Positions 5,767-60,078 of a stretch of 64,000 nt of DNA are shown here, piece after piece. A model generated the notes under the pieces. It saw only the letters and a list, made by a program, of their open reading frames with translations. It made no database searches and was not told where the DNA came from. The translations under genes were made by a program, and so were the position numbers. Every line of letters starts with the position of its first letter. Positions within the stretch are counted from its first letter, which is position 1. Source of the stretch: Larkinella rosea (lineage in GTDB: Bacteria > Bacteroidota > Bacteroidia > Cytophagales > Spirosomataceae); contig NZ_RQJO01000008.1 of assembly GCF_003858635.1 (NCBI RefSeq), positions 1,550,001 to 1,614,000 of the forward strand. Direction: 5' to 3'.

Positions 5767-5767
5767 G

Positions 5768-5846
5768 GATGACTTATAAATGACGGATGATGAATAGTAA
5801 CGTACTTGGGCACTTTCCATTCATCATCCGTCATTTATAAGTCATC
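5768..5846. repeat. Long inverted repeat between convergent genes
   Basis: Perfect 28-base arms at 5768-5795 and 5819-5846 (GATGACTTATAAATGACGGA at the outer end) flank a 23-base spacer. The element lies between the adaptor gene (+) and the VOC gene (-), both ending here. It could serve as a bidirectional terminator, but there is no clean run of T, and the arms are longer than a terminator needs. A mobile palindrome of the REP/MITE kind is equally possible. Confidence 0.75.
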
Positions 5847-5854
5847 ATTCCCCT

Positions 5855-6244: not shown

Positions 6245-6266
6245 GATGTGTGCTGATTGCCGACCG

Positions 6267-6746: not shown

Positions 6747-6781
6747 TGAATGAAGAACATTAACAGGCAAGCTACTCAATT

Positions 6782-12403: not shown

Positions 12404-12422
12404 TATCGGTTTACGGTATTCC

Positions 12423-12484
12423 GTTTACGGTGGCTGACGCCTTCAAGCTCAAATGTAAATCAGCTTGCGTCAGCCACCGTAAAC
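12423..12484 (+). terminator. Hairpin after the ThuA multidomain gene
   Basis: Perfect 18-base arms (GTTTACGGTGGCTGACGC at 12423-12440 and its complement at 12467-12484) begin 20 bases after the stop codon. The spacer is 26 bases, with a partial inner pairing of AAGCT and AGCTT. There is no strong T-run, so it may be a palindromic repeat acting as a terminator rather than a classical intrinsic terminator. Confidence 0.6.
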
Positions 12485-12615
12485 CTTGCTGCGCAATTTT
12501 ATTTCGACTATTTGGCATTTAAACGGTTTTTACTTGTATATATCGCAAATCGTCCGTTTTTTATTTATGTATTAACGATTAATGCTGTTATTTTACCATT
12601 CGATAACAATCGGGT

Positions 12616-13227: not shown

Positions 13228-13301
13228 CGAACCGAGCCAGCGGTTTTCCGGAACAATCCCAGGTGTCGGTGGTTCTTCCATAGTACCCGATTTCCCTGCG
13301 T

Positions 13302-13979
13302 ATGAAAATTTTAGTCGTTGAAGACGAACCCAAAACCCTGAACGCCATCCGACAGGGGCTGGAAGAAACCCAGTATGAAGTTGATATTGCGTATGATGGG
13401 CTGATTGCCAAGCGATTAGCATTGAAGAATTCGTATGCGGCCATCATTACGGATGTGATCATTCCGGGTCTGAATGGGTTTGAACTGATTCGCCAATTGC
13501 GGGCGCAGGGCATCACCACGCCGATTTTGCTGCTGACGGCCCTGGGCGAATCCAGCGATAAAGTGATGGGATTTGATGCCGGTACGGACCAATACCTGAC
13601 CAAACCGTTCCAGTTTGCCGAATTGCTGGCGCGGGTTCGGTCGTTGACCAAACGCAGTTCGCAGGTGGCCATGACGGCCCAGATGCTTCGGTTTGCCGGT
13701 ATTGAAATGAATCTGGATGCTAAAACGGTTCATCGCAACGGGCAACCGGTCGATTTGACGGCCCGCGAGTTTGCCCTGCTCGAATACCTGTTGCGAAACC
13801 AGGGTCGGGTACTCTCAAAAGTCGATATTGCGGAACGCGTCTGGGGGCTGAATTTTGATGCCGGGACCAATGTGGTGGAAGTGTATATCAATTATTTACG
13901 GAAGAAAATCGATAAAGATTTTCCGAAGAAGCTCATTCACACGCAGTTTGGGATGGGGTATGTACTGAAAGAAGAGTAG
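13302..13979 (+). CDS. OmpR/PhoB-family response regulator
   Basis: 225 residues. The N-terminal receiver domain has the acidic pocket in VVEDEP, phosphoacceptor Asp51 in IITDVIIPG and Lys101 in YLTKPF. The C-terminal winged helix has AREFALLEYLLRNQGRVLSK, a VWGLNFDAGTNVVEVYINYLRKK recognition region and the usual HTQFGMGYVLKEE ending. It resembles the CusR/heavy-metal branch. The histidine kinase at 14294 is the probable partner, but a hairpin and a small membrane protein gene lie between, so the two may be transcribed separately. Confidence 0.94.
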   Translation: MKILVVEDEPKTLNAIRQGLEETQYEVDIAYDGLIAKRLALKNSYAAIITDVIIPGLNGFELIRQLRAQGITTPILLLTALGESSDKVMGFDAGTDQYLTKPFQFAELLARVRSLTKRSSQVAMTAQMLRFAGIEMNLDAKTVHRNGQPVDLTAREFALLEYLLRNQGRVLSKVDIAERVWGLNFDAGTNVVEVYINYLRKKIDKDFPKKLIHTQFGMGYVLKEE

Positions 13980-45207: not shown

Positions 45208-45249
45208 ACAATTAATCCGCCAGCCATGCTAAAAATCGACGAAGTCGGC

Positions 45250-45406
45250 ATTTATCAGCCCACTGCTTTAGCTGTGGGTTAGGGAAAAAACAGCTGATGA
45301 CGAGGAACCGTTTTAACGGTTTTCTGGACGTAGAAACCGTTAAAACGGTTATTCCCAATCGGTTTCTTTTCGTTTTACCCACAGCTAAAGCAGTGGGCTG
45401 ATAAAT
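45250..45406. repeat. Nested inverted repeat with TTTA-loop hairpins
   Basis: Outer 30-base arms at 45250-45279 and 45377-45406 each contain CCCACTGC-TTTA-GCTGTGGG or its complement. Inside lies a second inverted repeat (45306-45324 with 45333-45350) built from AACCGTTTTAACGGTT. The outer hairpin has the same C-TTTA-G loop as the elements at 1298 and 28757, although stem bases differ. It sits after the TPR kinase gene. Confidence 0.85.
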
Positions 45407-45438
45407 GGTATAATCTTAATTCGGTCCTCACCTTATGC

Positions 45439-45481
45439 AAAAACCGGTCAGCAGGTTGGCGAAACCTGCTGACCGGTTTTT
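45439..45481 (+). terminator. Strong intrinsic-type terminator
   Basis: Perfect 19-base arms 45439-45457 and 45463-45481 (AACCGGTCAGCAGGTT core) around a five-base loop, with an A-run before and a T-run after. It would end transcription from the TPR kinase side and insulate the DeoR operon. Confidence 0.85.
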
Positions 45482-45728: not shown

Positions 45729-46493
45729 ATGCTAGCCAATCGGCGCCGGGATAAAATACTGGAATTGCTCAAGGAAGACGGTTCGGCCAAAGTGATCGAT
45801 CTGGCAAAACTCTTTAAGGTAACCGAAGTAACGATTCGTCAGGATCTGGAAAAGCTGGAAAAAGACGGGCTGGTGACCAAAGAACACGGGGGCGCTTTTC
45901 TGAAAAACGTGGAAAATCAGGTGCGCACGTTTTCGCTGGGGAACCAGGAAAACATCGACAAAAAAGAACGGATTGCGGCCAAATGCCTGGAATACATCGA
46001 AAGTGGCGACACCATTATTCTGGATTCGGGTTCGACCACGACCGAAATAGCCCGGAAATTAATCGGTATTAAAAACCTGACTGTCATCACCAACGCCCTG
46101 AATATCGCCCTGATTCTGGGCGCCGAACCGGGCATCGAGGTGATCATGACCGGTGGCGAATTCAAACCGCCGACGCTCTCACTCACCGGCCAGAAAGCCG
46201 CCGACTTTTTCAAGGGGCTGAATGTGCAAAAGCTGTTTCTGGCCACCGCCGGTATTTCGCTGAAATCCGGGCTGACCTACCCAAGCATCAGCGACCTGGT
46301 CGTCAAAAAAGCCATGATCGATGCCGCCGACACGACCTATCTGGTGGCCGATTCGACCAAAATCGGGAAGAGCGCGTTCGCTAGCCTGGGTGCTTTGTCG
46401 CTGATCGATTACATCATCACCGATGCCGGAATCGAAGAAAAAGATAAACAGGTTTTTCACGACAACGAAATTGAATTACTCATTGCCAGTTGA
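45729..46493 (+). CDS. DeoR/GlpR-family transcription regulator
   Basis: 254 residues. The N-terminal helix-turn-helix has the DeoR signature (RRDKILELLKEDGSAKVIDL, VTEVTIRQDLEKLEKDGLV, EHGGAFL). The sugar-phosphate-binding C-terminal domain follows (DTIILDSGSTTTEIARKL, LTVITNALNIALIL, VADSTKIGKSAFASLG). It probably represses the downstream operon until a phosphorylated sugar intermediate, perhaps the product of the FGGY kinase, binds. It is the first gene, six bases before the isomerase-like gene, so it autoregulates. Confidence 0.93.
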   Translation: MLANRRRDKILELLKEDGSAKVIDLAKLFKVTEVTIRQDLEKLEKDGLVTKEHGGAFLKNVENQVRTFSLGNQENIDKKERIAAKCLEYIESGDTIILDSGSTTTEIARKLIGIKNLTVITNALNIALILGAEPGIEVIMTGGEFKPPTLSLTGQKAADFFKGLNVQKLFLATAGISLKSGLTYPSISDLVVKKAMIDAADTTYLVADSTKIGKSAFASLGALSLIDYIITDAGIEEKDKQVFHDNEIELLIAS

Positions 46494-46499
46494 CTCACT

Positions 46500-47918
46500 A
46501 TGACCAGAAAAGAAAGCGCGCCCATCAGTCTGGGTGTCATTATTGGAAACCGTGACTTTTTTCCGGACCGGCTGGTGGCGGAATCACGGGTCGAAATCAT
46601 CGATATTCTGAAAAAACACAATATTAATCCGATTCTGTTAGGCACGGAAGATACCAAGCTGGGCGGAGTGGAAACATTTCAGGACGCGCGAAAATGTGCG
46701 GATCTGTTCCGGAACCACCGCGATGAAATCAGTGGCATTCTGGTGGTTCTGCCCAATTTTGGCGATGAACGTGGCGTGGCCGAAACGCTGAAACTGGCCG
46801 GTCTGGAAGTGCCGGTTTTGATCCAGGCGTACCCCGATGACCTGAACAAACTGGACGTCGCCCGCCGACGCGATTCGTGGTGTGGCAAGATTTCGGTCAG
46901 CAATAACCTCTACCAGTTTGGCATCAAATACTCGCTGACGACGAAGCACGTGGTGCATCCGACCGACGCCAGCTTTACGCAGGATCTGCTGAATTTCATC
47001 GGCGTCTGCCGGGTGGTGCGCGGTTTGCGGAAGGTTCGAATTGGCGCGGTGGGCGCGCGGCCGGGCGGTTTTAATACGGTTCGGTACAGCGAAAAAATTC
47101 TGCAGCGCAACGGGATCTCGGTGGTCACCATCGACTTATCCGAAATTCTGGGCAATGCTGACAAACTGACCAAAGACGACGCCAGCGTGAAAGCCCGGCT
47201 GGAAGCCATCAAAGCGTATACGCCGACGGGCCGCACGCCGGACGATAAGCTGGTGCAGATTGCCAAACTCGATGTGGTGTTGAACGACTTCGTGGAACAA
47301 AATTCGCTCGATGCCACCGCCATTCAGTGCTGGACCTCAATTCAGCAGAATTACGGCTGCAACGTCTGTACGAGCATGAGCATGATGAGCGAAAACATGC
47401 TGCCGAGCGCGTGCGAGGTCGATGTAACCGGTACGCTGAGCATGTACGCCATGCAACTGGCCTCGGGCTCCCCGAGTGCACTGGTCGACTGGAACAACAA
47501 TTACGCCGACGACGAAAACAAGTGCGTGCTGTTTCACTGTGGCAACTGGGCGAAGTCGTTTTTGCCGGACATCGAAATCAGCACCGCGCCCATTCTGGGC
47601 ACCACCGTCGGGGAGGAAAACACGTACGGAGCGTTGTCGGGCCGAACCCCGGCGTCTCCGCTGACGTACGGACGCATCAGCACCGACGATTCCAAAGGCA
47701 TTATCAAAGCGTACGTCGGCGAAGGCCGCTTGACCGACGATGCGTTGAATACGTTCGGAAACCGGGCGGTGGCCGACATCCCGAATTTGCAGGGCCTGAT
47801 GCAATATGTTTGCCGCAACGGGTTTGAACACCACGTCGTAATGAACGCTTCGAAAACCGCCGGGATTCTGAAAGAAGCGCTCGGAAATTACATGGGCTGG
47901 GAAGTCTACGAACATTAA
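46500..47918 (+). CDS. L-fucose/L-arabinose isomerase-family protein
   Basis: 472 residues, shorter than FucI (about 590) and close to the short FucI-like group. Recognisable parts: SLGVIIGNRDFFPDRLV at the start, GILVVLPNFGDERGVAETLK, PVLIQAYPDDLNK, KVRIGAVGARPGGFNTVRYS, TAIQCWTSIQQNYGCNVC, NMLPSACEVDVTGTLSMYA and WNNNYADDENKCVLFHCGNW. Glu in ACEVD, Asp and His residues match the metal-binding site of aldose-ketose isomerases. It should convert an aldose to a ketose in the cytoplasm ahead of the FGGY kinase and transketolase. The sugar is not known. It is five bases before the transketolase gene. Confidence 0.88.
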   Translation: MTRKESAPISLGVIIGNRDFFPDRLVAESRVEIIDILKKHNINPILLGTEDTKLGGVETFQDARKCADLFRNHRDEISGILVVLPNFGDERGVAETLKLAGLEVPVLIQAYPDDLNKLDVARRRDSWCGKISVSNNLYQFGIKYSLTTKHVVHPTDASFTQDLLNFIGVCRVVRGLRKVRIGAVGARPGGFNTVRYSEKILQRNGISVVTIDLSEILGNADKLTKDDASVKARLEAIKAYTPTGRTPDDKLVQIAKLDVVLNDFVEQNSLDATAIQCWTSIQQNYGCNVCTSMSMMSENMLPSACEVDVTGTLSMYAMQLASGSPSALVDWNNNYADDENKCVLFHCGNWAKSFLPDIEISTAPILGTTVGEENTYGALSGRTPASPLTYGRISTDDSKGIIKAYVGEGRLTDDALNTFGNRAVADIPNLQGLMQYVCRNGFEHHVVMNASKTAGILKEALGNYMGWEVYEH

Positions 47919-47923
47919 AAGTT

Positions 47924-48751
47924 ATGACTGATAAGGAGTTAGCATTGAAGTCGGTCGAGTATCGCAGGAAAATTCTGAAGTACATTGTCGAGGCCAAAGC
48001 CGGGCATACGGGCGGCAGTCTGTCGTGCGTAGACATTCTGAATGTGCTGTATAACCACGTGATGAATGTCAGCCCGGAGAACTTCAGATCGCCGGTACGC
48101 GACCGGTATATTCAGAGCAAAGGCCATACGGTGGAGGCTCTGTACGTGGTGCTGGCCGACCAGGGTTTTTTCCCGGAATCGGATTTGCTGACGCTCTGTA
48201 AATACGGTTCGCACTACATCGGTCACCCGACGAAAAAGGTCAACGGCATTGAACAGAATACCGGATCGCTCGGACATGGGATGTCGCTCAGCGTTGGAAC
48301 CGCACTGGCCGCCAAGCTGGATGGGCTGGCGTACCGAGTCTTTACACTGCTGGGCGACGGCGAACTGCCCGAAGGCTCGAACTGGGAAGGAGCGTTATTG
48401 GCGTCTCATTATCAACTGGATAACCTGTGCGCCATTGTCGATAAAAATGGGTTGCAGATTTCAGGGCCAACTACCGACGTGTGCAACACCGATCCGCTCG
48501 ACCGCAAATTTGAAGCATTCGGCTGGGAAGTCCGGCACGTGGACGGGCACGATTTCGGTGCGTTAAAAGAGGCCTTTGCGGCTTTGCCGTTTGCGCCCGG
48601 AAAACCGAGCCTGATCATTGCCCACACCGTCAAAGGTCGGGGTATCAGCTACATGGAAAATCAATTAAAGTGGCACCACGGCGTTCCAAATGCCGAGCAG
48701 TATGCCCAGGCTTTGGAAGAGTTGGAGGAGGCTACGGCAGTCCTCCGCTGA
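47924..48751 (+). CDS. Transketolase, N-terminal (TPP-binding) subunit
   Basis: 275 residues, about 40 percent of a full transketolase. The thiamine-diphosphate pyrophosphate domain is clear: AGHTGGSLSCVDILNVLY, SKGHTVEALYVVLADQG, NTGSLGHGMSLSVGTALA, the metal motif LLGDGELPEGSNWEGAL and DKNGLQISG, ending with HTVKGRGISYMENQLKWH. The other half is the next gene, 21 bases downstream, so the enzyme is a heteromer. Split forms occur in pentose and branched-sugar pathways, for example apulose-4-phosphate transketolase (AptA/AptB) and the sulfoquinovose transketolase. Its place in this operon suggests a dedicated sugar rather than the general pentose phosphate pathway. Confidence 0.93.
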   Translation: MTDKELALKSVEYRRKILKYIVEAKAGHTGGSLSCVDILNVLYNHVMNVSPENFRSPVRDRYIQSKGHTVEALYVVLADQGFFPESDLLTLCKYGSHYIGHPTKKVNGIEQNTGSLGHGMSLSVGTALAAKLDGLAYRVFTLLGDGELPEGSNWEGALLASHYQLDNLCAIVDKNGLQISGPTTDVCNTDPLDRKFEAFGWEVRHVDGHDFGALKEAFAALPFAPGKPSLIIAHTVKGRGISYMENQLKWHHGVPNAEQYAQALEELEEATAVLR

Positions 48752-48772
48752 AAAACGAAAGGTGACACAATT

Positions 48773-49747
48773 ATGGCAGAAATGACGCAAAACGAACGCG
48801 CTACGTACAAAGCGAATCTCGACGTTTTTTCCGGGACACTTCAGGACCTGGCCAGTACCGACCGCACGATTCTGGTGGTGACCAGCGACTCGCGGGGCTC
48901 CGGGAAACTGGTGCCTTTCGGTCAGAAATACCCCGCTCAAATCGTTGAAATTGGGATTGCCGAACAAAATCTGGTGGGCGTCGCGGCCGGTCTGGCGTCG
49001 ACGGGCAAGAAAGTTTTTGCGGTTTCGCCCGCCTGTTTTCTAACAGCCCGTTCGTTCGAACAGATCAAAACCGATGTGGCGTATTCGGATAATCCGGTGA
49101 AACTCATCGGCATCAGTGCGGGGGTGAGCTACGGCGCGCTGGGTTCGACGCACCACAGTCTGCACGATTTTGCGGCTTTGCGGGCGGTGCATAACCTGAT
49201 CGTGGTGGCACCCGCCGATAATTTTGAAGCCGAACACGCCATCCGGCTGGCGGCTGAAACCGATCATCCAATCTACATCCGGTTTGGCAAAAAAGCGATG
49301 CCTTACCTGACCGAAGATCCCAGCCGCCGGTTTGAATTTGGCAAAGGAAGCGTCGTTCGGGAAGGCGGTGATCTGGCCATCATTGGCACGGGCGAAACGG
49401 TTTATCCGGCGGTTCTGGCGGCTAATCGGCTGGAAAACGTCTACGGAATCCGGGCGACGGTGGTCAGTATGCACACCATCAAACCGCTGGATTACGAACT
49501 GCTGGCGAAACTGGCCGAAACCGGTGCGCCCATCATCACGGCGGAGGAACACAGTATTTATGGCGGTTTGGGCGAAGCCTGCGCGTCGTTCCTGTTGCAG
49601 AACGGTTTTCGTAACCCGTTCAAAATCATGGGGATTCCGGATGAATACACCGTCACCGGTTCGCAAATCGAAATCCTTAATCACTACGGTTTGTCGGAAG
49701 AAGGAATTGCCGAAACCGGGTTGAAACTGGTACAGAAACAGGCTTAA
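48773..49747 (+). CDS. Transketolase, C-terminal (pyrimidine-binding) subunit
   Basis: 324 residues. It holds the pyrimidine domain ([40 protein letters not shown] with the catalytic Glu in [26 protein letters not shown]) and the C-terminal transketolase domain ([54 protein letters not shown]). With the preceding gene it makes a complete enzyme moving a two-carbon ketol unit. It ends two bases before the Sde182-like gene, so all are cotranscribed. Confidence 0.93.
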
Positions 49748-49749
49748 AA

Positions 49750-51177
49750 ATGAAAAATAAACCCTTTTTTCAACTGGCTTTTGCGCTGATTTTAACGGGC
49801 GGTTTTTATTCGATAATGTATGGCCAAACGCCGGAAACCGCTCAGAAACGACGGGTTTTGGTACTGACCGATATTGAAAATGAGCCGGATGATGCCCAGT
49901 CGATGGTGCGGTTTCTAACCTATTGCAATCAGTGGGATGTGGAAGGACTGATCGCGACGACCTCGGTGCATCAGCGCAACCGGGTGGCCCCGGAACGGAT
50001 TCGGCAGATCGTGGAAGCGTACGGCAAAGTGCGCAACAATCTCCTGCTGCACGAAAAAGGCTATCCCGAAACGAGCTATTTACTCAGCATTATCAAAGCC
50101 TCGTACCCGAATTACGGCCTGGAAGCAGTCGGCCCCGGTAAAGATTCGGAGGGTTCGGAACACCTCATTGCCGTGGTGGATCGGAAAGACGACCGCCCGG
50201 TCTGGATTCCGGTTTGGGGAGGAGCCAACTGCCTGGCGCAGGCGCTGTGGAAAGTCCGCCAGACCCGCACGCCGGAAGAACTCGACCGGTTTATTGCTAA
50301 AATTCGCGTCTATACGATCTCGGATCAGGACGACGCCGGGCCGTGGCTCCGCAAGACATTCCCCAACCTGTTTTTCATCGCCAGCCCCGGTTTTCACGAC
50401 GGGGGAGCGTATCATTACGGGGCCTGGACCGGCATCAGCGGGGATAAATTTCACGGGCGGTTTACGGGTGCCGATTTTAGTCTGGTCGATAATCCGTGGC
50501 TCAACGAACACATTCGGAAAAACCACGGGCCGCTGGGTGCCGAACACCCGGAAACCAAATTTCTGATGGAAGGCGACACTCCCTCGTTTTTCTTCCTGAT
50601 TAACAATGGCTTGAGCGATCCGGAACACCCGAATTACGGCAGTTGGGGTGGCCGCTACGAGTTTTATACCCCCCGGACGCGCAAGTGGTTTCACGACCCG
50701 GAAACGCGCCCATTCTGGGCCGACGCCGAAGACGAAGTGCTGGGCGTCGACGGCAATTACCACACCAGCAACAAAGCCACGATCTGGCGGTGGCGGCAGG
50801 CGTATCAGCACGATTTTGCCGCCCGCATCGACTGGACCATCAAACCGTATAAGGAAGCCAATCACCCGCCCGTTGCCGTACTGAAACATGCTAATCAATT
50901 GCGGGTAAAAAGTGGTGATAAGGTGGTTTTAAGTGCCGAAGGCTCAACGGATCCCGACGGCAATGAACTGGCCTACGAATGGATTTATTACCGCGAACCG
51001 GGCACTTACGACAGCAACCGACCACTGGAAGTGCAGGATAAACAGCAGAAAACCGCCTTTATCATGGCGCCCAGGGTGACAAAACCGGAAATGATCCACG
51101 TCATTCTGGCCGTGACCGACAACGGAAAACCGGCCCTGACGCGTTACCAGCGGGTGATTATCACGGTATTCCCGTAG
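49750..51177 (+). CDS. Secreted Sde182-type (DUF1593) nucleoside-hydrolase-like protein, copy 1
   Basis: 475 residues with a signal peptide (to about YGQTPE). The N-terminal domain resembles nucleoside hydrolases: the acidic loop [19 protein letters not shown] replaces the usual DxDxxxDD calcium site, and further conserved parts are [58 protein letters not shown] and [19 protein letters not shown]-terminal Ig/PKD-like module has [20 protein letters not shown]. It probably hydrolyses a pentofuranoside-like glycoside outside the inner membrane. Direct evidence on substrate is lacking. It sits between transketolase and importer genes. Confidence 0.85.
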
Positions 51178-51212
51178 GGCTCTACAACATCTTTGAACCG
51201 ATTGTGTATCGA

Positions 51213-52190
51213 ATGAACAAGCTGATGAAGTACAAGATCATACCGGTTTTTCTGCTGCTGATCGGCTTGCTCATGGCCGGTAGTTGCCAAAAATCGTCCG
51301 GTGAACAAGGCCCGAAAAAGGTGGCGGTTATCATTTCGACACTCAACAATCCGTGGTTTGTGGTGCTGGCCGAAACGGCGGCTGCGCAGGCCAAATCATT
51401 GGGGTATGAAGCGAAAATCTTTGATTCGCAGAACAATACCGCTTTGGAAACCGACCATTTCGAGAACGCCATCGTTTCCGGTTTCGACGCCATTCTGTTC
51501 AATCCGACGGATGCCGATGGTTCGGTGGTCAACGTTCTGAAAGCCAAAGAAGCGGGTATTCCGGTTTTTTGCATGGACCGCGAAGTCAACTCGGCCAAAG
51601 CCGCCACGTCTCAGATTCTGTCCGATAACTACGCCGGTTGCGTGGCCATCGGAAAATACTTTGTGCAAACGATGCCGAAAAAAGCCGCCGGAACAACGAT
51701 CAACTACGTCGAAATTCTGGGTCTGGTGGGCGACAACAACACCTGGAACCGCTCGAAGGGTTTTCACAGTGTGGTCGATCTGTACCCGAATTTGAAGATG
51801 GTGGCGCAGCAAAGTGCGGATTTTGACCGGAATAAGGCGCTGGAAGTGGTCGAGTCCATTTTACAGGCGCATCCGGAAATCGAAGGAATTTTCTGCGGGA
51901 ATGATGCGATGGCGATGGGTGCGTACCAGGCCGTGATGGCCGCCGGAAAAGCGAAGGAAATCAAGGTATACGGTTTCGACGGTGCGCAGGATGTGATCGA
52001 GTCGATCAGTAACGGAAAAATCATGGCAACGGGTTTGCAATCGCCCCAGACGATGGCGAAAACCGCTGCCATTTATGCCGACGAATTTTTTAAGGGGAAA
52101 CGGGATTTTCCGCCGAAAATGCCGGTAGCCGTCGAACTGGTTTCGCAGGCCAACATCACCGATTACAGCGCATTGACCAAACGAAATTGA
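51213..52190 (+). CDS. Rbs-type ABC transporter sugar-binding lipoprotein
   Basis: 325 residues from the ATG at 51213; an in-frame GTG is three codons upstream. The leader ends in LLMAGSCQKS, a lipoprotein signal. The periplasmic-binding-protein type 1 fold is clear: VAVIISTLNNPWFVVLAETA, FDAILFNPTDADGSVVNVLK, IPVFCMDREVNSAKAATSQI, IEGIFCGNDAMAMGAYQAVM and IKVYGFDGAQDVIESISNGK. It delivers a small sugar to the permease. It starts 35 bases after the Sde182 gene and ends one base before the DUF2291 gene. Confidence 0.92.
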   Translation: MNKLMKYKIIPVFLLLIGLLMAGSCQKSSGEQGPKKVAVIISTLNNPWFVVLAETAAAQAKSLGYEAKIFDSQNNTALETDHFENAIVSGFDAILFNPTDADGSVVNVLKAKEAGIPVFCMDREVNSAKAATSQILSDNYAGCVAIGKYFVQTMPKKAAGTTINYVEILGLVGDNNTWNRSKGFHSVVDLYPNLKMVAQQSADFDRNKALEVVESILQAHPEIEGIFCGNDAMAMGAYQAVMAAGKAKEIKVYGFDGAQDVIESISNGKIMATGLQSPQTMAKTAAIYADEFFKGKRDFPPKMPVAVELVSQANITDYSALTKRN

Positions 52191-52191
52191 A

Positions 52192-52806
52192 ATGAAGAGG
52201 AACGGTTTGAAATACGGTGTTCTGGTTTTGTTGCTGGCGGTCGTGGCTTATAACTCCGTCTATTTCAGGAAATTGGACGAGGTGAAAGCGAAGGGCGCTA
52301 CCTCAAAATTCGATGCGGCTGCCTACGCCGAAGCGTTCTGGAAAACCAAGTTGCTGCCGGATTCGGGGAAAGCCGTTGAGCTGATTGCGCTGATTCAGCA
52401 GTTGAAAACCGATAAAGACAAAGCCTTCGAGGCTCATTCCCACGCGCTGAGCATTGGCAATCTGCGGTATTTCCTGGTGCGGGGAACCGGGAAAATAACC
52501 GCTATTGGCGACCACGACGTAACGGTTATGCTGTCCAACGGCTCAGAAATCACCATTGCCACAGAATACGTTTTCGGGAATGCCGCCCGTGATGCGTCGG
52601 GATTGATCAGCCTGACGGAATTTGACAACACGATGGATCTGAACAATGTGTCGGCGGAACTCAACAAAATTATTCGAAACCGGGTGGTGGCGCCGTTCAA
52701 AGCCAGTGCCAAAACCGGTCAGCAGATCCGCTTTATCGGAGCGGTCGAATTGAATCGGGAACACCTGCACACCGACGCCATCGAAGTGATTCCGATCCGT
52801 ATCTAG
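52192..52806 (+). CDS. DUF2291-family membrane-anchored periplasmic protein
   Basis: 204 residues. One N-terminal anchor (GLKYGVLVLLLAVVAYNSVY) precedes a periplasmic domain with FDAAAYAEAFWKTKLLPDSG, AHSHALSIGNLRYFLVRGTG, ATEYVFGNAARDASGLI and LTEFDNTMDLNNVSAELNKI, matching DUF2291. These proteins are regularly encoded next to Rbs-type ABC importers for pentoses and polyols, and probably assist the transporter or act as an accessory binding component. The biochemical role is unproven. It is tightly packed: one base after the binding protein and two before the ATPase gene. Confidence 0.85.
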   Translation: MKRNGLKYGVLVLLLAVVAYNSVYFRKLDEVKAKGATSKFDAAAYAEAFWKTKLLPDSGKAVELIALIQQLKTDKDKAFEAHSHALSIGNLRYFLVRGTGKITAIGDHDVTVMLSNGSEITIATEYVFGNAARDASGLISLTEFDNTMDLNNVSAELNKIIRNRVVAPFKASAKTGQQIRFIGAVELNREHLHTDAIEVIPIRI

Positions 52807-52808
52807 CC

Positions 52809-54311
52809 ATGTTAATAGCGGAAAACATAACGAAACGGTTTGCGGGCGTTACGGCGCTGGAGAACGTCTGTCTGGAATTTCAGGCCGGAAAAGTGAACGC
52901 GGTTATTGGTGAAAATGGGGCCGGAAAATCCACACTGATGAAGATTCTTTCGGGCGTTTACCCGGATTACGAAGGCCGGATTCTTTTCAAAGGGCAACCG
53001 GTTCGGTTTGCTTCCCCGCGCGAGGCTCAGGATGGCGGCATTGCTATTATTCACCAGGAACTCAACCTGATTCCGTACCTGAGCATCACCGAAAACATTT
53101 TTCTGGGCCGCGAACTGACAACCCAGTGGGGAATGCTCGACAGGAAGGCGATGCGGTTGCGGACGCAGCAGTTGCTGGATCGACTGAAGCTGACAGTGAG
53201 TCCCGAGACGCTGGTAGCCGAACTGAAAGTCGGGCAGCAACAGGTCGTCGAAATTGCCAAGGCGCTGCTGATCGATTCGGAGGTGATCATCATGGACGAA
53301 CCGACCTCGGCCATCAGCGAAAGCGAAGTAGAGGTGCTGTTTTCGATCATTGCAGACTTGAAAAAGGCGAATAAAACCATCGTGTACATCTCGCATAAAC
53401 TGGACGAACTGTTCAAAATGGCCGACCGGTTTGTGGTGTTGCGCGACGGCAAATCCATCGAATCCGGCGACATGCGCGGCATGACGCACGACGACATCAT
53501 CCGCAAAATGGTCGGTCGGTCGGTTCATGCCATTCGGCGAAAAGTTGGCTCCGAACTTGTAAAACCGCTGTTAACCGTTAAAAATCTCTGTTTGAAACAC
53601 CCCGTTCGGACGCAGGAAAACCTGCTGAAAAACATTTCGTTTCAGGTCGGGCGGGGTGAAATTGTCGGGATTTTCGGCTTGATGGGCGCTGGCCGGACCG
53701 AATTGCTGGAAACGCTTTTCGGCCTGCATCCGAAACGAACCAGCAGTACGATTGAACTGAACGGGCAGAAAATAAAGGTGAACAAACCCGCCGATGCCAT
53801 CGAAGCCGGTTTGGCGCTGGTGCCCGAAGATCGGAAAAAAGACGGTTTGGTGCTGGGGCTGGACGTTCGCACGAACATCAGCCTGACCAACCTCAGAAGT
53901 CTCGAACAGGGCGGTTTTCTGAATAAAACGAAAGAAACCGCGCTGGCGAAAAAGTACGTGGCTGACCTGAAAATCAAGACGTCGTCGGAGAAACAGACCG
54001 CGCGGAACCTGAGTGGCGGCAACCAGCAGAAAATCGTGCTGTCGAAATGGCTGGCGACCAATCCCAAACTGCTGATGCTCGACGAACCCACGCGCGGCAT
54101 CGACGTCAACGCCAAGAATGAAATCTATAAACTGATTTTACAACTCGCCGACGAAGGCATGGGCATTCTGGTGGTTTCGTCGGAACTGCCGGAAATTCTG
54201 GCCATTTCCGACCGGATTCTGGTCATGAGCGAAGGGTGCCTGACGTCGGAACTGTCCGTCGATGCCTCCGAAGACGAGATTCTGAAAGCCGCTATTCCGC
54301 AAACCCTTTAA
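52809..54311 (+). CDS. Rbs-type ABC transporter ATPase (two ABC domains)
   Basis: 500 residues. The first nucleotide-binding domain has Walker A GENGAGKST at 34-42, a signature-like ELKVGQQQVVEIAKALL and Walker B VIIMDEPTSAI. The second domain has the degenerate Walker A GLMGAGRTELLETLF typical of carbohydrate-uptake type 2 ATPases, LSGGNQQKIVLSKWL and LMLDEPTRGIDV. It drives uptake of the sugar bound by the lipoprotein. The stop overlaps the permease ATG by one base (TAATG). Nothing in it identifies the sugar; ribose would be only one option. Confidence 0.95.
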   Translation: MLIAENITKRFAGVTALENVCLEFQAGKVNAVIGENGAGKSTLMKILSGVYPDYEGRILFKGQPVRFASPREAQDGGIAIIHQELNLIPYLSITENIFLGRELTTQWGMLDRKAMRLRTQQLLDRLKLTVSPETLVAELKVGQQQVVEIAKALLIDSEVIIMDEPTSAISESEVEVLFSIIADLKKANKTIVYISHKLDELFKMADRFVVLRDGKSIESGDMRGMTHDDIIRKMVGRSVHAIRRKVGSELVKPLLTVKNLCLKHPVRTQENLLKNISFQVGRGEIVGIFGLMGAGRTELLETLFGLHPKRTSSTIELNGQKIKVNKPADAIEAGLALVPEDRKKDGLVLGLDVRTNISLTNLRSLEQGGFLNKTKETALAKKYVADLKIKTSSEKQTARNLSGGNQQKIVLSKWLATNPKLLMLDEPTRGIDVNAKNEIYKLILQLADEGMGILVVSSELPEILAISDRILVMSEGCLTSELSVDASEDEILKAAIPQTL

Positions 54312-55303
54312 TGCCGACATTCATGCAGATTCCGTTGCAAACCTACCGACCCGTTCTCCTGAAATTTCAATCGCTGATTGCGCTGCTGATTCTCTGCGTC
54401 GCGATCGGCCTGCTTTCCGATAAGTTTTTTACCGTCGCCAACGGCTGGAACGTGCTGCGACAAATCTCCGTCAACGTCTGTATTTCCGTCGGCATGACGC
54501 TGGTGGTGCTCACCGCCGGAATCGATCTCTCGGTGGGATCGGTGCTGGCGCTTTCCGGGGCTATTGCGGCCGGTTTGCTCCGAAACGGCATCGAGTTACC
54601 CGCCAATAATCTCTACATCGGTTTCACGGTTTTCGGGGCCATTGTCGCCGGACTGCTGACCGGCAGTGTGCTGGGCGGGTTCAACGGCTGGGCCATCACG
54701 CGGTTTAACTTACCGCCATTTGTGGCCACACTCGCCATGCTGACCATCGCCCGCGGGCTGACGATGCTCTGGACCGAAGGCTTTCCGATCACCGGTTTGG
54801 GCGACTCATTTACCTTCCTCGGAACGGGCTGGTTTCTGGGCATTCCGCTGCCAGTCTGGATTTCCGGCGGCATTGTGCTTGTGGTGGTTTTGCTGATGGA
54901 CCAGACCCGGTTTGGGCGGTACGTCTACGCCATTGGCGGCAGCGAAAGCGCGGCCCGGCTTTCGGGGGTCAATATTAATCGCATCAAAATGCTGGTCTAC
55001 ACGATAGCGGGCGGGCTGGCCGCCGTGGGCGGTTTGCTGGTTACTTCGCGACTGGATTCGGCTCAGCCCAACGCCGGAACGAGCTACGAACTGGACTCCA
55101 TTGCGGCCGTGGTCATCGGTGGAACCTCGCTTTCGGGTGGGCGGGGCAGCATTCTGGGAACGGTGCAGGGTGCAGTAATCATTGGTGTTTTGAACAACGG
55201 ACTGGTGTTATTGAATGTCTCGCCGTTCTGGCAGCAGGTCGTCAAAGGCATCGTGATTCTGCTGGCGGTTATTATCGACAAATCCAGTTCGCGGAACGAC
55301 TAA
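54311..55303 (+). CDS. Rbs-type ABC transporter permease
   Basis: 330 residues from the ATG at 54311, chosen because it overlaps the ATPase stop by one base and gives a normal RbsC-like start (MPTFMQIPLQTYRPVLLKFQ). The frame opens further back at 54236, inside the ATPase gene. About eight to ten membrane helices and the family signatures SVNVCISVGMTLVVLTAGID, LSVGSVLALSGAIAAGLL, NLPPFVATLAMLTIARGLT and GTSLSGGRGSILGTVQGAVI are seen. It forms the inner-membrane channel with the two-domain ATPase. The kinase gene follows after four bases. Confidence 0.94.
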   Translation: MPTFMQIPLQTYRPVLLKFQSLIALLILCVAIGLLSDKFFTVANGWNVLRQISVNVCISVGMTLVVLTAGIDLSVGSVLALSGAIAAGLLRNGIELPANNLYIGFTVFGAIVAGLLTGSVLGGFNGWAITRFNLPPFVATLAMLTIARGLTMLWTEGFPITGLGDSFTFLGTGWFLGIPLPVWISGGIVLVVVLLMDQTRFGRYVYAIGGSESAARLSGVNINRIKMLVYTIAGGLAAVGGLLVTSRLDSAQPNAGTSYELDSIAAVVIGGTSLSGGRGSILGTVQGAVIIGVLNNGLVLLNVSPFWQQVVKGIVILLAVIIDKSSSRND

Positions 55304-55307
55304 CGCT

Positions 55308-56795
55308 ATGGAACATTCCTATATTCTGGCGATCGATCAGGGCACGAGCAGCACGAAAACGCTGCTGTTTGACGAAAAAGGCGAAGTTGCCGCCCGCGCT
55401 TCGGAGCCGCTTCGAACCCGCTATTACGGTGATGGTTACGTCGAGCAGGACCCCGACGAAATCTACCGGAACGTGTTGACGTCCGTTGGAAAATGCCTGG
55501 ACGGTTTTGCGGCTCAGGGCGGGGATTTTCAGTCCATTCGGGTCTGCGGCATTTCGAACCAGCGCGAAACATTCGTGGTCTGGGACGAAACCGGAAAACC
55601 GCTCCACAACGCCATCGTCTGGCAGTGTAAACGCTCGATCGACGTTTGCGAACGACTCAAATCCGACGGTCTGGAAGAAGTCGTCAGGGCCAAAACCGGT
55701 TTGTTCATCGATCCGTATTTTTCCGGCACTAAGCTGATCTGGCTGTATGAAAACAACGAAAAAGTCCGGCAGGCCGTCGATGCCGGGAAGGCGTATTTCG
55801 GCACGGTCGATACGTGGCTGCTGTATAAGCTAACGAACGGACAACGCTATTTGACCGATTACACCAACGCATCCCGAACGCTGTTTTTCAACCTGAAAAC
55901 GCTGGATTGGGACCCGGATTTACTGACCGTTTTCGGATTGTCCCGGCTGAATCTGCCGCAACCCGGGCCGTCGGCTTTTGGGTTTGGCGAATCGAATTTC
56001 AACGGATTGTTCGATCATAACCTGCCAATTACAAGTCTGATCGGCGATTCGCACGCGGCTGCTTTTGGGGAGGGCTGTTTCACGCCCGGCACGGCCAAAG
56101 CGACGCTGGGAACCGGCTGCTCGATCATCATGAACATTGGTCCGGAGCTGAAAGAGTCGAAGCAGGGCATGGTGACGACCGTTTGCTGGAGCACCGAAAA
56201 CCGGGTCGATTACGCGCTGGAAGGTGTGATTGTGACCTGCGGAGCGACCATCGAATGGCTGAAAAATACGCTGAATCTATTCGCTGAAAGCTGGGAAACC
56301 GAAGCGATGGCAACGGCGGTTTCCGACAACGGCGGGGTGTATATCGTTCCGGCATTCAGCGGGTTGGGTGCGCCCCACTGGCAAATGTCGCGGAAGGCGA
56401 CGATCTCCGGTTTAACGTTCGGGTCCAGTAAGAACCACCTCGTTCGGGCCGCGCTCGAATCCATCCCGTACCAGATCAAAGATGTTATCGTGGCGATGGA
56501 AAGCGATACCGGGATTAATTTACAGGAACTCATGGTGAACGGAGGAATGACCGCCAACGGTTTTATCCTGCAATTTCTGGCGGATTTACTTGGGAAAACC
56601 GTCGTTAACGGCGGCATGCCGGACGTCTCGGCATTGGGTGCCGCTTACCTTGCCGGTTTAAAAGCCGGTATTTACCGCGACCTGGATTACCTGAAAAGCC
56701 TGAACGTAGGAAAGTTATTCATCCAGCCTGAAAAGGAAAATGACACTGTTCAAACCGGGTATGCAGGCTGGAAAACCGCTCTTCAAACGCCTTAA
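55308..56795 (+). CDS. FGGY-family carbohydrate kinase, glycerol-kinase-like
   Basis: 495 residues. Phosphate-binding loop IDQGTSSTKTLLF at about 9-21; NQRETFVVWDETGKPLHNAI, QCKRSIDVCERLKSDGLEE, DYTNASRTLFFNLKTLDWD, GDSHAAAFGEGCFTPGTAKA, LGTGCSIIMNIGPE and the ATP-side VNGGMTANGFILQFLADLLG. It is closest by eye to glycerol kinase, but the operon (isomerase, transketolase, importer) points to a ketose such as a pentulose. The conserved Arg-Glu of GISNQRET is kept. It follows the permease by four bases. Expected product: a ketose phosphate used by the split transketolase. Confidence 0.9.
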   Translation: MEHSYILAIDQGTSSTKTLLFDEKGEVAARASEPLRTRYYGDGYVEQDPDEIYRNVLTSVGKCLDGFAAQGGDFQSIRVCGISNQRETFVVWDETGKPLHNAIVWQCKRSIDVCERLKSDGLEEVVRAKTGLFIDPYFSGTKLIWLYENNEKVRQAVDAGKAYFGTVDTWLLYKLTNGQRYLTDYTNASRTLFFNLKTLDWDPDLLTVFGLSRLNLPQPGPSAFGFGESNFNGLFDHNLPITSLIGDSHAAAFGEGCFTPGTAKATLGTGCSIIMNIGPELKESKQGMVTTVCWSTENRVDYALEGVIVTCGATIEWLKNTLNLFAESWETEAMATAVSDNGGVYIVPAFSGLGAPHWQMSRKATISGLTFGSSKNHLVRAALESIPYQIKDVIVAMESDTGINLQELMVNGGMTANGFILQFLADLLGKTVVNGGMPDVSALGAAYLAGLKAGIYRDLDYLKSLNVGKLFIQPEKENDTVQTGYAGWKTALQTP

Positions 56796-56808
56796 GCAAT
56801 CCCAATCG

Positions 56809-58311
56809 ATGCGAAAATCAGGGTCACTGGTGGTACTGGCGTTGGGAATTTCGGCATCAGCCATCGCCCAGTTTCCCTCGACCAAACCGCGCACCATCGT
56901 GACGACCGATGGCGAAGTGGACGATGTCGATACGTTTATCCGGATGTTGCTCTACAGCAACGAGTTCGACATTGTCGGGTTGGTCTACAGCAGTTCGCAG
57001 TGGCACTACAAGGGCGATGGGAAAGGGACCAAATTTACCTCCGAAATGCCTAATACGGCCAAACGATACGGCGAACGCACCGAACTTCGCTGGCCCGGCA
57101 CCACCTGGATGGAGGAATACATTGACAAATACGCCAACGTCTATCCGAACCTGATCAAACACGCCAAAGGCTACCCGACGCCCGACTATCTGAAGAGTCT
57201 GGTACGGGTCGGAAATATTGATTTTGAGGGCGAAATGAGCCGCGATACCGAAGGTTCCGATTTCATCAAGAAGATTCTGCTAGATAACACCAGCAGTCCG
57301 GTTTATCTGCAAATCTGGGGAGGAACGAACACCGTCGCCCGCGCTTTGAAATCCATTGAGGATCAGTACAAAAACTCAGCCGACTGGGCGAAAATTGCTA
57401 AGAAAGTCTCCGACAAAGCCATCATTTATGCGGTTCTGGATCAGGATGCGACCTATCAGAAATACATTGCTCCCAACTGGCCGCAGATCAAGGTGCTGTA
57501 TAATTCGGATCAGTTCTGGAGCTTTGCGTATCTGTGGCCCCGCGTGGTTCCGGCGGAGCTAAAACCGTACCTGGGCGGAAAATGGTTTGCCGAAAACATC
57601 CGGTTTGGGCACGGCCCCTTGCTGGAATCTTATTATTTGTGGGGTGATGGCAAGAAGCTCCCCGGCGACCCCGAACACACGCACGGCGACCCGGAAGAAG
57701 CTAAAAAGTACGGATTGAGCCAGTATGATTTCATCTCGGAAGGCGATTCGCCCGCCTTTTTTTACCTCATCGACGTTGGATTGCGGAGCATGGAAGACGT
57801 GGCCTACGGCGGTTGGGGTGGCCGCATGGTGAAATCGCCCACGAATCCGTACCGCTGGGAGGATGGGAAAACCGTTACCGACTACAATCCGTACACCCAA
57901 AAAGCCGATGCGGCCTACCCGCAGACGCGCTGGATTCCGGTGTTGCAGAGCGATTTTGCCGCCCGCGCCGATTGGTGCGTCAAGCCCTACAACGAAGCCA
58001 ATCATCCGCCCGTCGTGAAGCTCAATCACGCGCCGAATCTTCGGGTCAAACCGGGTCAGAACGTGACGCTCAGCGGTTCGGCCACCGATCCGGATGGTGA
58101 TGCGTTGAGCTACCGCTGGTGGCAGTACGAAGAAGTGGGCTCGTATTCGGGAAAAGTGGCAATTCAGAACGGGAATCAGGCTAAATCGGCTTTTACGGTT
58201 CCGAAAGATGCGAAATCCGGGAACAAGATTCACCTGATTCTGGAGGTGACGGATGCCAAAGCGCCCCGTTTGACGCGCTACCAGCGGGTGATTGCGACGG
58301 TTGCGGAGTGA
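56809..58311 (+). CDS. Secreted Sde182-type (DUF1593) protein, copy 2 (divergent)
   Basis: 500 residues from the ATG at 56809 (MRKSGSLVVLALGISASAIA, signal peptide); the frame opens at 56740 inside the kinase gene. The acidic loop reads TIVTTDGEVDDVDTFIRML, nearer to classical nucleoside hydrolases in spacing than copies 1 and 3. Other shared parts: LQIWGGTNTVARALKSIEDQ, VLDQDATYQKYIAPNWPQIK, EGDSPAFFYLIDVGL, GGWGGRMV and the C-terminal SATDPDGDALSYRWWQYEEV. An insert at about 240-300 (YLWPRVVPAELKPYLGGKWF) is not in the other copies. It starts 13 bases after the kinase gene. Confidence 0.85.
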   Translation: MRKSGSLVVLALGISASAIAQFPSTKPRTIVTTDGEVDDVDTFIRMLLYSNEFDIVGLVYSSSQWHYKGDGKGTKFTSEMPNTAKRYGERTELRWPGTTWMEEYIDKYANVYPNLIKHAKGYPTPDYLKSLVRVGNIDFEGEMSRDTEGSDFIKKILLDNTSSPVYLQIWGGTNTVARALKSIEDQYKNSADWAKIAKKVSDKAIIYAVLDQDATYQKYIAPNWPQIKVLYNSDQFWSFAYLWPRVVPAELKPYLGGKWFAENIRFGHGPLLESYYLWGDGKKLPGDPEHTHGDPEEAKKYGLSQYDFISEGDSPAFFYLIDVGLRSMEDVAYGGWGGRMVKSPTNPYRWEDGKTVTDYNPYTQKADAAYPQTRWIPVLQSDFAARADWCVKPYNEANHPPVVKLNHAPNLRVKPGQNVTLSGSATDPDGDALSYRWWQYEEVGSYSGKVAIQNGNQAKSAFTVPKDAKSGNKIHLILEVTDAKAPRLTRYQRVIATVAE

Positions 58312-58327
58312 TCCGATCTCAATGAAC

Positions 58328-58356
58328 GTTGTCGCTTGCGTGTCGCGAGCGACAAC
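58328..58356. repeat. GTTGTCGCT palindrome (copy 2)
   Basis: GTTGTCGCT (58328-58336) pairs with AGCGACAAC (58348-58356) around TGCGTGTCGCG. It is the reverse complement of the element at 35864-35897, with almost the same loop. A related short palindrome GGTCGC-GTA-GCGACC follows at 58388-58402. Both lie after the second Sde182 gene. Confidence 0.7.
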
Positions 58357-58437
58357 AATGATTAAATAGGAAACCGATGGACTGTTTGGTCGCGTAGCGA
58401 CCGAATGTTTGTAGAAAAGGCGAATTTTAGGGTATAT

Positions 58438-58488
58438 GCGTGCCTTTAGGTACGCAACAGTTGGTTCATTGCGTACCTAAAGGCACGC
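58438..58488. repeat. Inverted repeat with TTTA-loop hairpins (short spacer)
   Basis: Perfect 20-base arms at 58438-58457 and 58469-58488 flank 11 bases. Each arm folds as GCGTGCC-TTTA-GGTACGC (one G-T pair) or its complement, the same C-TTTA-G loop as the elements near 1298, 28757 and 45258 with other stem bases. It lies in the 291-base gap between the second and third Sde182 genes, where a small GTGCC-GAT-GGCAC hairpin also occurs at 58528-58540. Confidence 0.8.
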
Positions 58489-58602
58489 CGTCCGCGTCTA
58501 TCAATACATTATTGCTACAAACATTGCGTGCCGATGGCACTTAATCGGCTTTTCCAACATCGGTCATTGAATCCCAAATTTGACGATAAACTAGCACTTG
58601 AA

Positions 58603-60078
58603 ATGAAAAAATGGCGTCTTCTGATTCCTCTGCAACTTCTGCTTTTCAGCCCTCTATTTCTCCTGGCCCAGCCGGAGCCCAAGGTTCGGGTGCTGGTGTT
58701 GACGGACATCGAAGCCGACCCCGACGATGCGCAATCGCTGGTGCGGTTTCTGGCGTATGCCAACGAATTTGAGGTGGAAGGACTGATTGCCACCACCTCG
58801 ACGCACCAGCGAAACCGGGTCGCGCCCGAAACGATTCACCGGATTCTGACGGCGTACGGCAAAGTGCAGCCCAATTTGCTGAAACACGCGAAAGGCTATC
58901 CAACGGCAGCGGAACTGAAAACGAAAGTCAAAAAAGGGCGGGCGGTTTACGGCATGGAAGGTGTTGGCGGAGGCCAGGATTCGGAAGGGTCGGAGTGGAT
59001 TATCAAGACGCTGGAAAAACCGGATGCGCGCCCGTTGTGGATACCGGTTTGGGGCGGTCCGAACTGCCTGGCGCAGGCGTTGTGGAAAATACAGAAAACC
59101 AAAACCGCTGCGGATGCCGCCCGGCTGTACGCCAAACTGCGTGTGTACACCATTTCCGATCAGGATGATTCCGGGCCGTGGATTCGGAAAACGTTTCCCG
59201 GAATTTTCTTCATTGTGAGTCCCGGCAGCTACCGGAATGCGACCTGGTCGGGGATTACCCGCAACTTTCCCGGTGCCAATAACGAGGTCAATAGCAACGA
59301 CTGGATTGCCCGGAACATTCAGCAGGGCCACGGGCCGCTGGGCACGGAATACCCGGATGTCGCTTACGGAATGGAAGGCGATACGCCCTCGTTCATGAAT
59401 CTGATTCCCAATGGCTTGAATGTGCCGGAACACCCGGAATATGGCGGTTGGGGCGGTCGGTATGAATTGTATACGCCGAAGGCCGAACCCCGGCCGACGG
59501 CAGCCCCCACCCCGGTTCGGACGCAGGGTGGACAACTGGTGACCGGCCCGGTTTCAGACCCGGAAACCCGTCCGATCTGGACGAATGCCGAGGATACGTA
59601 TTCGCCACTGGTGGCGTCGCGCTGGGGACGGCCTTTTGTGACGGATACCGCTAAATACAAAAGTAGTCAGGTGACGTTGTGGCGCTGGCGGGAGGATTTT
59701 CAGCACGATTTTGCCGCCCGGATGGACTGGATGGTGAGCGAATACAGGAACGCCAACCACCCGCCGGTTCCGAAAGTGGCCCACCCGGAGGGGCTGAAAG
59801 TGAAATCGGGGGACATTTTTGGTCTGAACGCAACGGGGACGTATGATCCCGACGGCGATGCGCTGAGTTATTACTGGTTCCAGTACCCCGAAGCCGGAAC
59901 GTATAAAGAACGGGTTTCGTTTGCTCCGTTTTCGCCCAATCTGGCGAACCTGCACACCGTCAAAGCACCGGAAGTTTCCAGCCCTCAAACCGTTCATTTT
60001 ATCCTGGAAGTGACTGATAAAGGCTCGCCCGCACTGACGCGCTACAAACGGGTGATTGTCGAGGTTTCACCGAAATAG
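58603..60078 (+). CDS. Secreted Sde182-type (DUF1593) protein, copy 3
   Basis: 491 residues from the ATG at 58603 (MKKWRLLIPLQLLLFSPLFL, signal peptide); the open frame back to 58528 runs into palindromic DNA. It is close to copy 1: acidic loop [94 protein letters not shown]. The C-terminal module has GTYDPDGDALSYYWFQYPEA. A Pro/Thr-rich insert (EPRPTAAPTPVRTQGG) sits at about residues 299-314. It is 291 bases after copy 2, beyond palindromes, so may have separate expression. Confidence 0.86.
   Translation: MKKWRLLIPLQLLLFSPLFLLAQPEPKVRVLVLTDIEADPDDAQSLVRFLAYANEFEVEGLIATTSTHQRNRVAPETIHRILTAYGKVQPNLLKHAKGYPTAAELKTKVKKGRAVYGMEGVGGGQDSEGSEWIIKTLEKPDARPLWIPVWGGPNCLAQALWKIQKTKTAADAARLYAKLRVYTISDQDDSGPWIRKTFPGIFFIVSPGSYRNATWSGITRNFPGANNEVNSNDWIARNIQQGHGPLGTEYPDVAYGMEGDTPSFMNLIPNGLNVPEHPEYGGWGGRYELYTPKAEPRPTAAPTPVRTQGGQLVTGPVSDPETRPIWTNAEDTYSPLVASRWGRPFVTDTAKYKSSQVTLWRWREDFQHDFAARMDWMVSEYRNANHPPVPKVAHPEGLKVKSGDIFGLNATGTYDPDGDALSYYWFQYPEAGTYKERVSFAPFSPNLANLHTVKAPEVSSPQTVHFILEVTDKGSPALTRYKRVIVEVSPK

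Follow-up and report, generated by a model that had tools for sequence, protein, structure and literature searches.

Growth on D-apiose as sole carbon source is described for Escherichia strains, other than SE15, that carry an apiose cluster (PMC13001218); in the Pectobacterium cluster, according to the same paper, apsI occupies the place of the two oxidoreductases found in Escherichia. With the locus tags from this paper we located the cluster of E. coli SE15, which comprises AptA, AptB, AplK, RbsB, DUF2291, RbsA, RbsC, a regulator and two dehydrogenases. Here we analyze a similar operon from Larkinella rosea. It lies in a stretch of 64,000 nucleotides (contig NZ_RQJO01000008.1, positions 1,550,001 to 1,614,000), which we call the window, and consists of 12 genes on the plus strand between positions 45729 and 60078 (Table 1). 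From gene content, protein folds, clades, a kinase signature and a conserved neighborhood we infer its substrate and every one of its reactions: the operon very probably serves the utilization of D-apiose by the known non-oxidative route. As such it is an ordinary, nicely conserved member of this route, to which the Sde182-type proteins are attached as a testable family.

The chemistry of the non-oxidative D-apiose steps was reportedly described by Carter et al. in 2018. In Larkinella, D-apiose would be freed outside the cell by apiosidase-like enzymes encoded elsewhere, perhaps with a contribution from the three Sde182-type proteins of the operon, and would be taken up by the Rbs/DUF2291 ATP-binding cassette (ABC) importer. 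The isomerase with the FucI/AraA fold would convert D-apiose to D-apulose and the FGGY kinase would form D-apulose 4-phosphate. The two-subunit transketolase would then transfer a two-carbon unit to an acceptor from housekeeping metabolism, and dihydroxyacetone phosphate would remain. Control of the operon probably lies with the DeoR protein.

The N-terminal transketolase subunit falls into the AptA clade

The operon encodes the transketolase as two subunits, which are 48% and 41% identical to AptA and AptB of E. coli, the two parts of the split apulose-4-phosphate transketolase. A tree was computed for the N-terminal subunit only; its operon-type rows were the window and 10 of the 22 operon loci. 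The operon subunits, E. coli AptA and the sequences from Rhizobium, Caballeronia and the TIM-barrel variants described below are in one clade of 23 rows with a support of 100/99, which is separate from the generic split transketolases. The clade also includes the subunits from loci L142 and L164 and a further copy from the Larkinella genome itself (C10:1140k).

This second split transketolase of the host genome lies among epimerase and glycosyltransferase genes (locus L226, 8076-11967; contig C10 near 1140 kb). It probably serves the synthesis of surface sugars.

The isomerase groups with isomerases of enterobacterial aptAB clusters

The AlphaFold2 model of the isomerase has a mean predicted local distance difference test (pLDDT) score of 73 and a predicted template modeling (pTM) score of 0.81, and is weak at 276-306. 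Foldseek searches with this model returned L-arabinose isomerases first (best E 1.9e-18, template modeling score 0.72 by query length, root mean square deviation 5.6) and D-arabinose/L-fucose isomerases as a second group. No solved relative was found by phmmer at E 0.001, and comparing the isomerase alignment as a profile with E. coli FucI gave nothing informative.

In NCBIfam the isomerase matched a single model, that of the sulfoquinovose isomerase SftI. A sulfoquinovose pathway of the sulfo-TK type also uses a transketolase, and the kinase of the operon could in that case act on freed glycerol. However, the match of 95.9 bits is far from the SftI cut-off of 700, the operon proteins scanned gave no match to any other sulfosugar enzyme, and the kinase is without two contact residues of glycerol kinase (see below). 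We consider a sulfoquinovose pathway extremely improbable.

Two queries of a plasmid collection, E. coli AptA and the window isomerase, converged on the same places in Rahnella (CP042359), Sodalis (NZ_CP006570) and Klebsiella (CP110761, an 11.6-kb linear record). Their AptA proteins are 78-79% identical to E. coli AptA. Their isomerases, each encoded directly after AptB and followed by the kinase, are 54.3-54.7% identical to that of the window. These clusters resemble the Larkinella operon in the series RbsB-DUF2291-RbsA-RbsC, the split transketolase, the FucI-type isomerase and the FGGY kinase; they differ in that a sugar-binding transcriptional regulator takes the place of DeoR and that the kinase is of another lineage, and no Sde182 gene is annotated within the stretches seen. 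We take them to match the Pectobacterium apsI-aplK-aptA-aptB cluster.

In the isomerase tree the 11 operon rows (the window and 10 of the 22 operon loci) and the three enterobacterial isomerases form one clade with a support of 100/99, which is apart from 14 Bacteroidota paralogs with 50-52% identity; the tree was rooted with two distant relatives and carries a long-branch warning. The isomerase is most likely a D-apiose isomerase of the ApsI type. An earlier note on this DNA had favored the D-apiose route but suspected, from the FucI/AraA fold of the isomerase, a variant route or a different pentose. The comparison with the apiose clusters indicates that the substrate named there is probably right. 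The suspicion about the isomerase is probably wrong, since the same type occurs inside enterobacterial clusters with aptAB, kinase, Rbs importer and DUF2291, as a sister to the enzyme of the window.

Among the paralogs, loci L125 (genome G003) and L132 (genome G228) each combine an FGGY kinase and a sodium symporter with a class II aldolase/epimerase that is AraD-like, and L132 also has a beta-L-arabinofuranosidase of glycoside hydrolase (GH) family GH127. These two are probably L-arabinose routes that use this isomerase family. Locus L123 combines an FGGY kinase with a symporter; L122 has an oxidoreductase adjoining the isomerase, so that the 14 paralog loci are not all alike. The two L-arabinose-like loci raise the question of whether the Larkinella operon could also serve L-arabinose or another straight pentose, with the isomerase forming L-ribulose and the kinase L-ribulose 5-phosphate. 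Yet no epimerase was recognized in the operon scans or in the conserved core, the isomerase clusters with the enzymes of aptAB clusters and apart from the paralogs, and the kinase is of the GlpK/AplK type and not of the AraB-like type seen in L125. A private transketolase would also be superfluous in such a pathway. This alternative is very unlikely.

The kinase carries the active-site signature of AplK

We aligned 27 kinases: 20 of the operon type, including that of the window, four of the enterobacterial AplK type, E. coli AplK among them, and those from Rhizobium, Caballeronia and genome G352. All 27 have Ser/Ser at the positions of Q246 and F270 of GlpK, where E. coli GlpK has Gln/Phe. We take these two to be glycerol-contact residues of GlpK; the numbering is likewise assumed, and the residues were matched to the E. 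coli GlpK sequence. The 20 operon-type kinases retain R83, E84, W103, Y135 and D245 and differ from GlpK at Q246 and F270. The presence of Ser/Ser in all 27 aligned kinases makes glycerol a less plausible substrate and favors that of AplK. The enzyme is most likely a D-apulose kinase rather than a glycerol kinase.

The profile scores of the window kinase are 544 bits against the glycerol kinase model TIGR01311, which is below the cut-off of 590, and 562 bits against the broader GlpK subfamily model NF000756, which is above the cut-off of 498. In a tree with long outgroups, GlpK, the enterobacterial AplK proteins and the kinases of Rhizobium and G352 group together (100/100), and the operon kinases and that of Caballeronia stand apart from them. 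The window kinase is hence outside the AplK clade and of another lineage, yet it has the Ser/Ser active-site signature of AplK.

The importer and the ribose alternative

The operon encodes an Rbs-type ABC importer with a DUF2291 protein, as does the E. coli cluster; the DUF2291 protein itself gave no match to that of the E. coli apiose cluster at E 1e-5. The best solved relatives of the binding protein are the ribose-binding protein 2fn8, presumably from Thermotoga, and then 4ry0/5ibq. These structures are annotated as ribose-binding and Sde182 has a nucleoside-hydrolase fold. The operon could accordingly be read as a route for D-ribose or for the ribose of nucleosides, in which the Sde182-type proteins would release ribose, the Rbs system would import it, and isomerase and kinase would yield ribulose 5-phosphate. 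Such a route could do without an isomerase of this type and without a dedicated transketolase, and both of these proteins group with the enzymes of aptAB clusters. Moreover, Sde_0182 is reported to be inactive on purine and pyrimidine nucleosides (PMC8910321). The chance that ribose is the substrate is very small.

Several observations weigh against the assignment to D-apiose. The AptA clade admits, on a long branch, the second transketolase subunit of the host genome, which is surrounded by epimerase and glycosyltransferase genes. The kinase is 44% identical to E. coli GlpK and 36% to E. coli AplK, and groups apart from both. The solved protein closest to the binding protein is a ribose-binding one, and identity to the binding protein of the E. 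coli apiose cluster is only 30%. The Bacteroidota paralogs are 50-52% identical to the isomerase and the two best-annotated loci among them look L-arabinose-type; an identity of 54% alone thus does not fix the substrate. The proposed ApsI identity of the isomerase rests on synteny. Finally, one of the five sampled carriers described below (G158) is without the apiosidase family PF13204.

Variants of the pathway

The cluster of the E. coli SE15/ST131 type shares importer, kinase and AptAB with the Larkinella operon and differs in two short-chain dehydrogenases, which are proposed to replace the isomerase (PMC13001218). The clusters from Rhizobium and Caballeronia contain aptAB-like genes, an FGGY kinase and dehydrogenases. 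In locus L203 (genome G352, 97-13471) a Sde182-type gene (54% identical to the first one of the window) lies on one strand with both transketolase subunits (N-terminal 53%, C-terminal 47%), an FGGY kinase, DUF2291, an RbsA-type ATPase, an RbsC-type permease and a binding protein. This locus is different in that a xylose-isomerase-like TIM barrel (PF01261) replaces the FucI-type isomerase, a protein of 444 amino acids without Pfam match lies between isomerase and transketolase, and two AHSA1-type proteins are present. Locus L202 (genome G219, 3192-7316) shows the start of the same TIM-barrel variant with a Sde182-type gene and is masked beyond the start of the transketolase. The pathway thus appears modular. 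Its first step may be carried by a FucI-type enzyme, by a TIM barrel or by dehydrogenases, the last as proposed in PMC13001218, and its kinase comes from two lineages with the same active-site change.

An Erwinia plasmid (locus L169, 12001-13777) carries aptAB and a regulator; isomerase, kinase and Rbs importer are absent from the 24.8 kb seen.

The core operon is conserved in Bacteroidota

When one genome per species was scanned, 437 relatives of the isomerase were obtained; we kept the best 80, which are 78-97% identical to it. They come from genomes with Bacteroidota names, e.g. Spirosoma, Dyadobacter, Mucilaginibacter, Niastella and Flavobacterium, and from one record labeled Williamsia; among the named relatives Larkinella terrae is the nearest, with an isomerase that is 97% identical. 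The recurring gene order in the 80 loci is DeoR, isomerase, N-terminal and C-terminal transketolase subunits, binding protein, DUF2291, RbsA, RbsC and kinase. As a simple caller of open reading frames (ORFs) was used and many loci end at a contig end or flank, the gene counts are lower bounds: isomerase 79, N-terminal subunit 78, C-terminal subunit 75, binding protein and RbsA 69 each, DUF2291 67, RbsC 61, kinase 56 and DeoR 50. The complete set of eight core genes was recognized in 47 of the 80 loci; some loci are without the importer (L092, L101, L103, L106 and L107). Because this core recurs in loci that were fetched by the isomerase, the gene order goes beyond chance.

We also examined a sample of 395 genomes from the phylum, in which five carriers, including Larkinella, have an isomerase of the operon type (at least 73% identity) and the remaining 390 are counted as non-carriers. 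Isomerase matches occurred in 44 of the 395: the five carriers, 14 at about 50-52%, and 25 weak ones, two of which reach 27-29% over most of the length, the remainder being short stretches or lower. The 80 loci, from 437 relatives, place the likely D-apiose route in a broad range of Bacteroidota. Among the literature matches listed (titles and abstract openings; CAZy, UniProt and subscription papers lay outside the search) there was no work on apiose catabolism or this pathway in Bacteroidota; of the papers matched on enzymes of apiose breakdown, PMC13001218 alone was pertinent.

The Sde182-type proteins

All three Sde182-type genes of the host genome are located in this operon. Their products belong to PF07632, with domain scores above the curated cut-off and the nucleoside-hydrolase fold. 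The relative of known structure is Sde_0182 of Saccharophagus degradans (PDB 2yhg), in which this unit follows three carbohydrate-binding domains and which has been proposed to interact with furanoses (PMC8910321). In the top 50 of Foldseek's own ranking for protein 1, only 2yhg and, weakly, 4kl0 share the fold, most others being PKD, Ig and cadherin-type; nucleoside hydrolases surface in the VIA-align re-ranking. The nucleoside hydrolase fingerprint DxDxxxDD (PMC8910321) is altered to DIENEPDD, with Glu for the second Asp. Nucleoside hydrolases have His (group I), Trp (II) or Cys (III) ahead of the last calcium-binding Asp; judged from the motifs, and provided that the Asp of EGDTP is equivalent to it, Gly would take this place here. 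Some active nucleoside hydrolases are without this residue (PMC8910321). The corresponding motifs are TDGEVDD, WGGTN, LDQD and EGDSP in protein 2 and TDIEADPDD, WGGPN, SDQD and EGDTP in protein 3.

In the 73 other carriers, 29 of 40 high-scoring Sde182 genes are inside the fetched loci (at most 10 kb around the isomerase) and 11 are outside; the survey counted 49 Sde182 genes as near. A Sde182 gene is present in 31 of the 80 loci, and 15 of the 73 carriers have none. In two genomes (G352 and G219) Sde182-type genes adjoin the transketolase though the isomerase differs. The idea that Sde182 marks apiose loci only was rejected: it is present in 28 of the 390 non-carriers. Ten ORFs neighboring Sde182 genes were scanned and gave glucuronoyl esterase, GH3, sialate-esterase-type, aminotransferase, oxidoreductase, ATP-synthase and other domains, as well as the TIM barrel of L202. 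In L037, L040, L052, L061, L064, L065 and L069 there are divergent Sde182 copies that fall outside the motif patterns used.

The earlier note had proposed that the Sde182-type proteins could be the matching glycosidases. The clustering in the operon fits this proposal of a putative activity. It is possible, if somewhat doubtful, that the family includes D-apiofuranosidases that are secreted, or hydrolases acting on other furanosides with apiose. On the same tentative reading, a nucleoside-hydrolase fold would have been adapted to O-glycosides, and calcium would bind the cis-diol of apiose. If this is true, the Sde182 proteins would work for the apiose operon alongside PF13204 apiosidases or in their place. 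Our literature search found no enzymatic function for the Sde182/nucleoside-hydrolase-like family and no paper for DUF1593, and none of the nucleoside-hydrolase matches listed named Sde182. The operon gives this family, whose solved structure is without an assigned activity in the literature found, a directly testable substrate.

A protein of the IU_nuc_hydro type (PF01156) lies within or beside the operon in L037 (14820-15854) and likewise in L039, L040, L041, L048, L072 and L085. Its fingerprint is altered in Spirosoma-type loci, where it reads DNDLSGDPDG or DNDFSGDPDG.

Apiosidase-type genes and other neighbors

The Apiosidase family PF13204, which we take to be linked to GH140, scored above cut-off in 47 of the 395 sample genomes, namely in four of the five carriers compared with 43 of the 390 non-carriers. 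It was also present in 17 of 18 further carriers; these were chosen non-randomly, 16 of them being genomes whose locus holds Sde182. The host genome (8.17 Mb) has two strong PF13204 copies far from the operon and a weak one. The operon of L083 itself encodes a PF13204 protein (53 bits against a cut-off of 26.5), for which a search at E 0.01 gave a single solved relative, the putative glycoside hydrolase 4n0r. Members of the cluster to which the L083 protein belongs are present in nine loci, though not in every case inside the operon; the L083 member was the one scanned. GH43-like and BT_1020-like proteins are encoded upstream of the L082 isomerase, and other loci have GH88 (L061), a rhamnosidase (L045), GH3 (L067) or an alpha-L-fucosidase (L096) as neighbors. 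These genes would fit the degradation of pectin and do not prove apiose.

Operon layout and upstream DNA

With the likeliest ATG starts the intergenic gaps are, in order, 6, 5, 21, 2, 35, 1, 2, -1, 4, 13 and 291 bases. Ten of the 11 are thus between -1 and 35 bases, and the twelfth gene is separated by 291. These recomputed values agree with the spacing of 0-35 bases that the earlier note gave for nearly all of twelve same-strand genes. Its family assignments also agree with our Pfam matches and with the identities to the E. coli apiose cluster. The Pfam scan covered ten of the 12 proteins (all except the ATPase at 52809-54311 and the second hydrolase).

Table 1. Genes of the Larkinella rosea operon and the hairpin preceding it (window positions).
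Feature	Position	Strand	Evidence
Terminator-like hairpin	45439..45481	+	Perfect 19-bp stem, T-rich tail; precedes the operon
DeoR/GlpR-family regulator	45729..46493	+	Pfam DeoRC, HTH_DeoR
FucI/AraA-fold aldose-ketose isomerase	46500..47918	+	Pfam Fucose_iso_C; AlphaFold2 model and Foldseek; clade 100/99
Transketolase N-terminal (thiamine pyrophosphate-binding) subunit, AptA-like	47924..48751	+	Pfam Transketolase_N; 48% to E. coli AptA; AptA clade
Transketolase pyrimidine/C-terminal subunit, AptB-like	48773..49747	+	Pfam Transket_pyr and Transketolase_C; 41% to E. coli AptB
Sde182/nucleoside-hydrolase-like protein 1, candidate furanosidase	49750..51177	+	Sde182_NH-like and Sde0182_C; signal peptide by eye
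Rbs-type sugar-binding protein	51213..52190 (ORF opens 51204)	+	Pfam Peripla_BP_4; lipobox by eye
DUF2291 protein of importer	52192..52806	+	PF10054; DUF2291 protein also in E. coli apiose cluster
RbsA-type ABC ATPase	52809..54311	+	42% to E. coli apiose-cluster ATPase
RbsC-type permease	54311..55303 (ORF open from 54236)	+	BPD_transp_2; 42% to E. coli apiose-cluster permease
FGGY kinase	55308..56795	+	Pfam FGGY_N/C; Ser at the GlpK Q246 and F270 positions
Sde182-type protein 2, divergent subfamily	56809..58311	+	PF07632, 236 bits; signal peptide by eye
Sde182-type protein 3	58603..60078	+	PF07632, 369 bits; Sde182_NH-like and Sde0182_C; signal peptide by eye

The DeoR/GlpR-family protein presumably regulates this operon. 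Aligning the DNA upstream of five loci gave no useful result, and we therefore propose no operator. The terminator scan as a whole gave 20 sites, which is no excess over the mean of 22.4 in shuffled sequence. Just 5' of the terminator-like hairpin, positions 45249-45407 form an inverted repeat of 74 nucleotides with arms that are 81% complementary and 11 nucleotides between them. It looks like a repetitive extragenic palindromic (REP)-type or mobile hairpin element.

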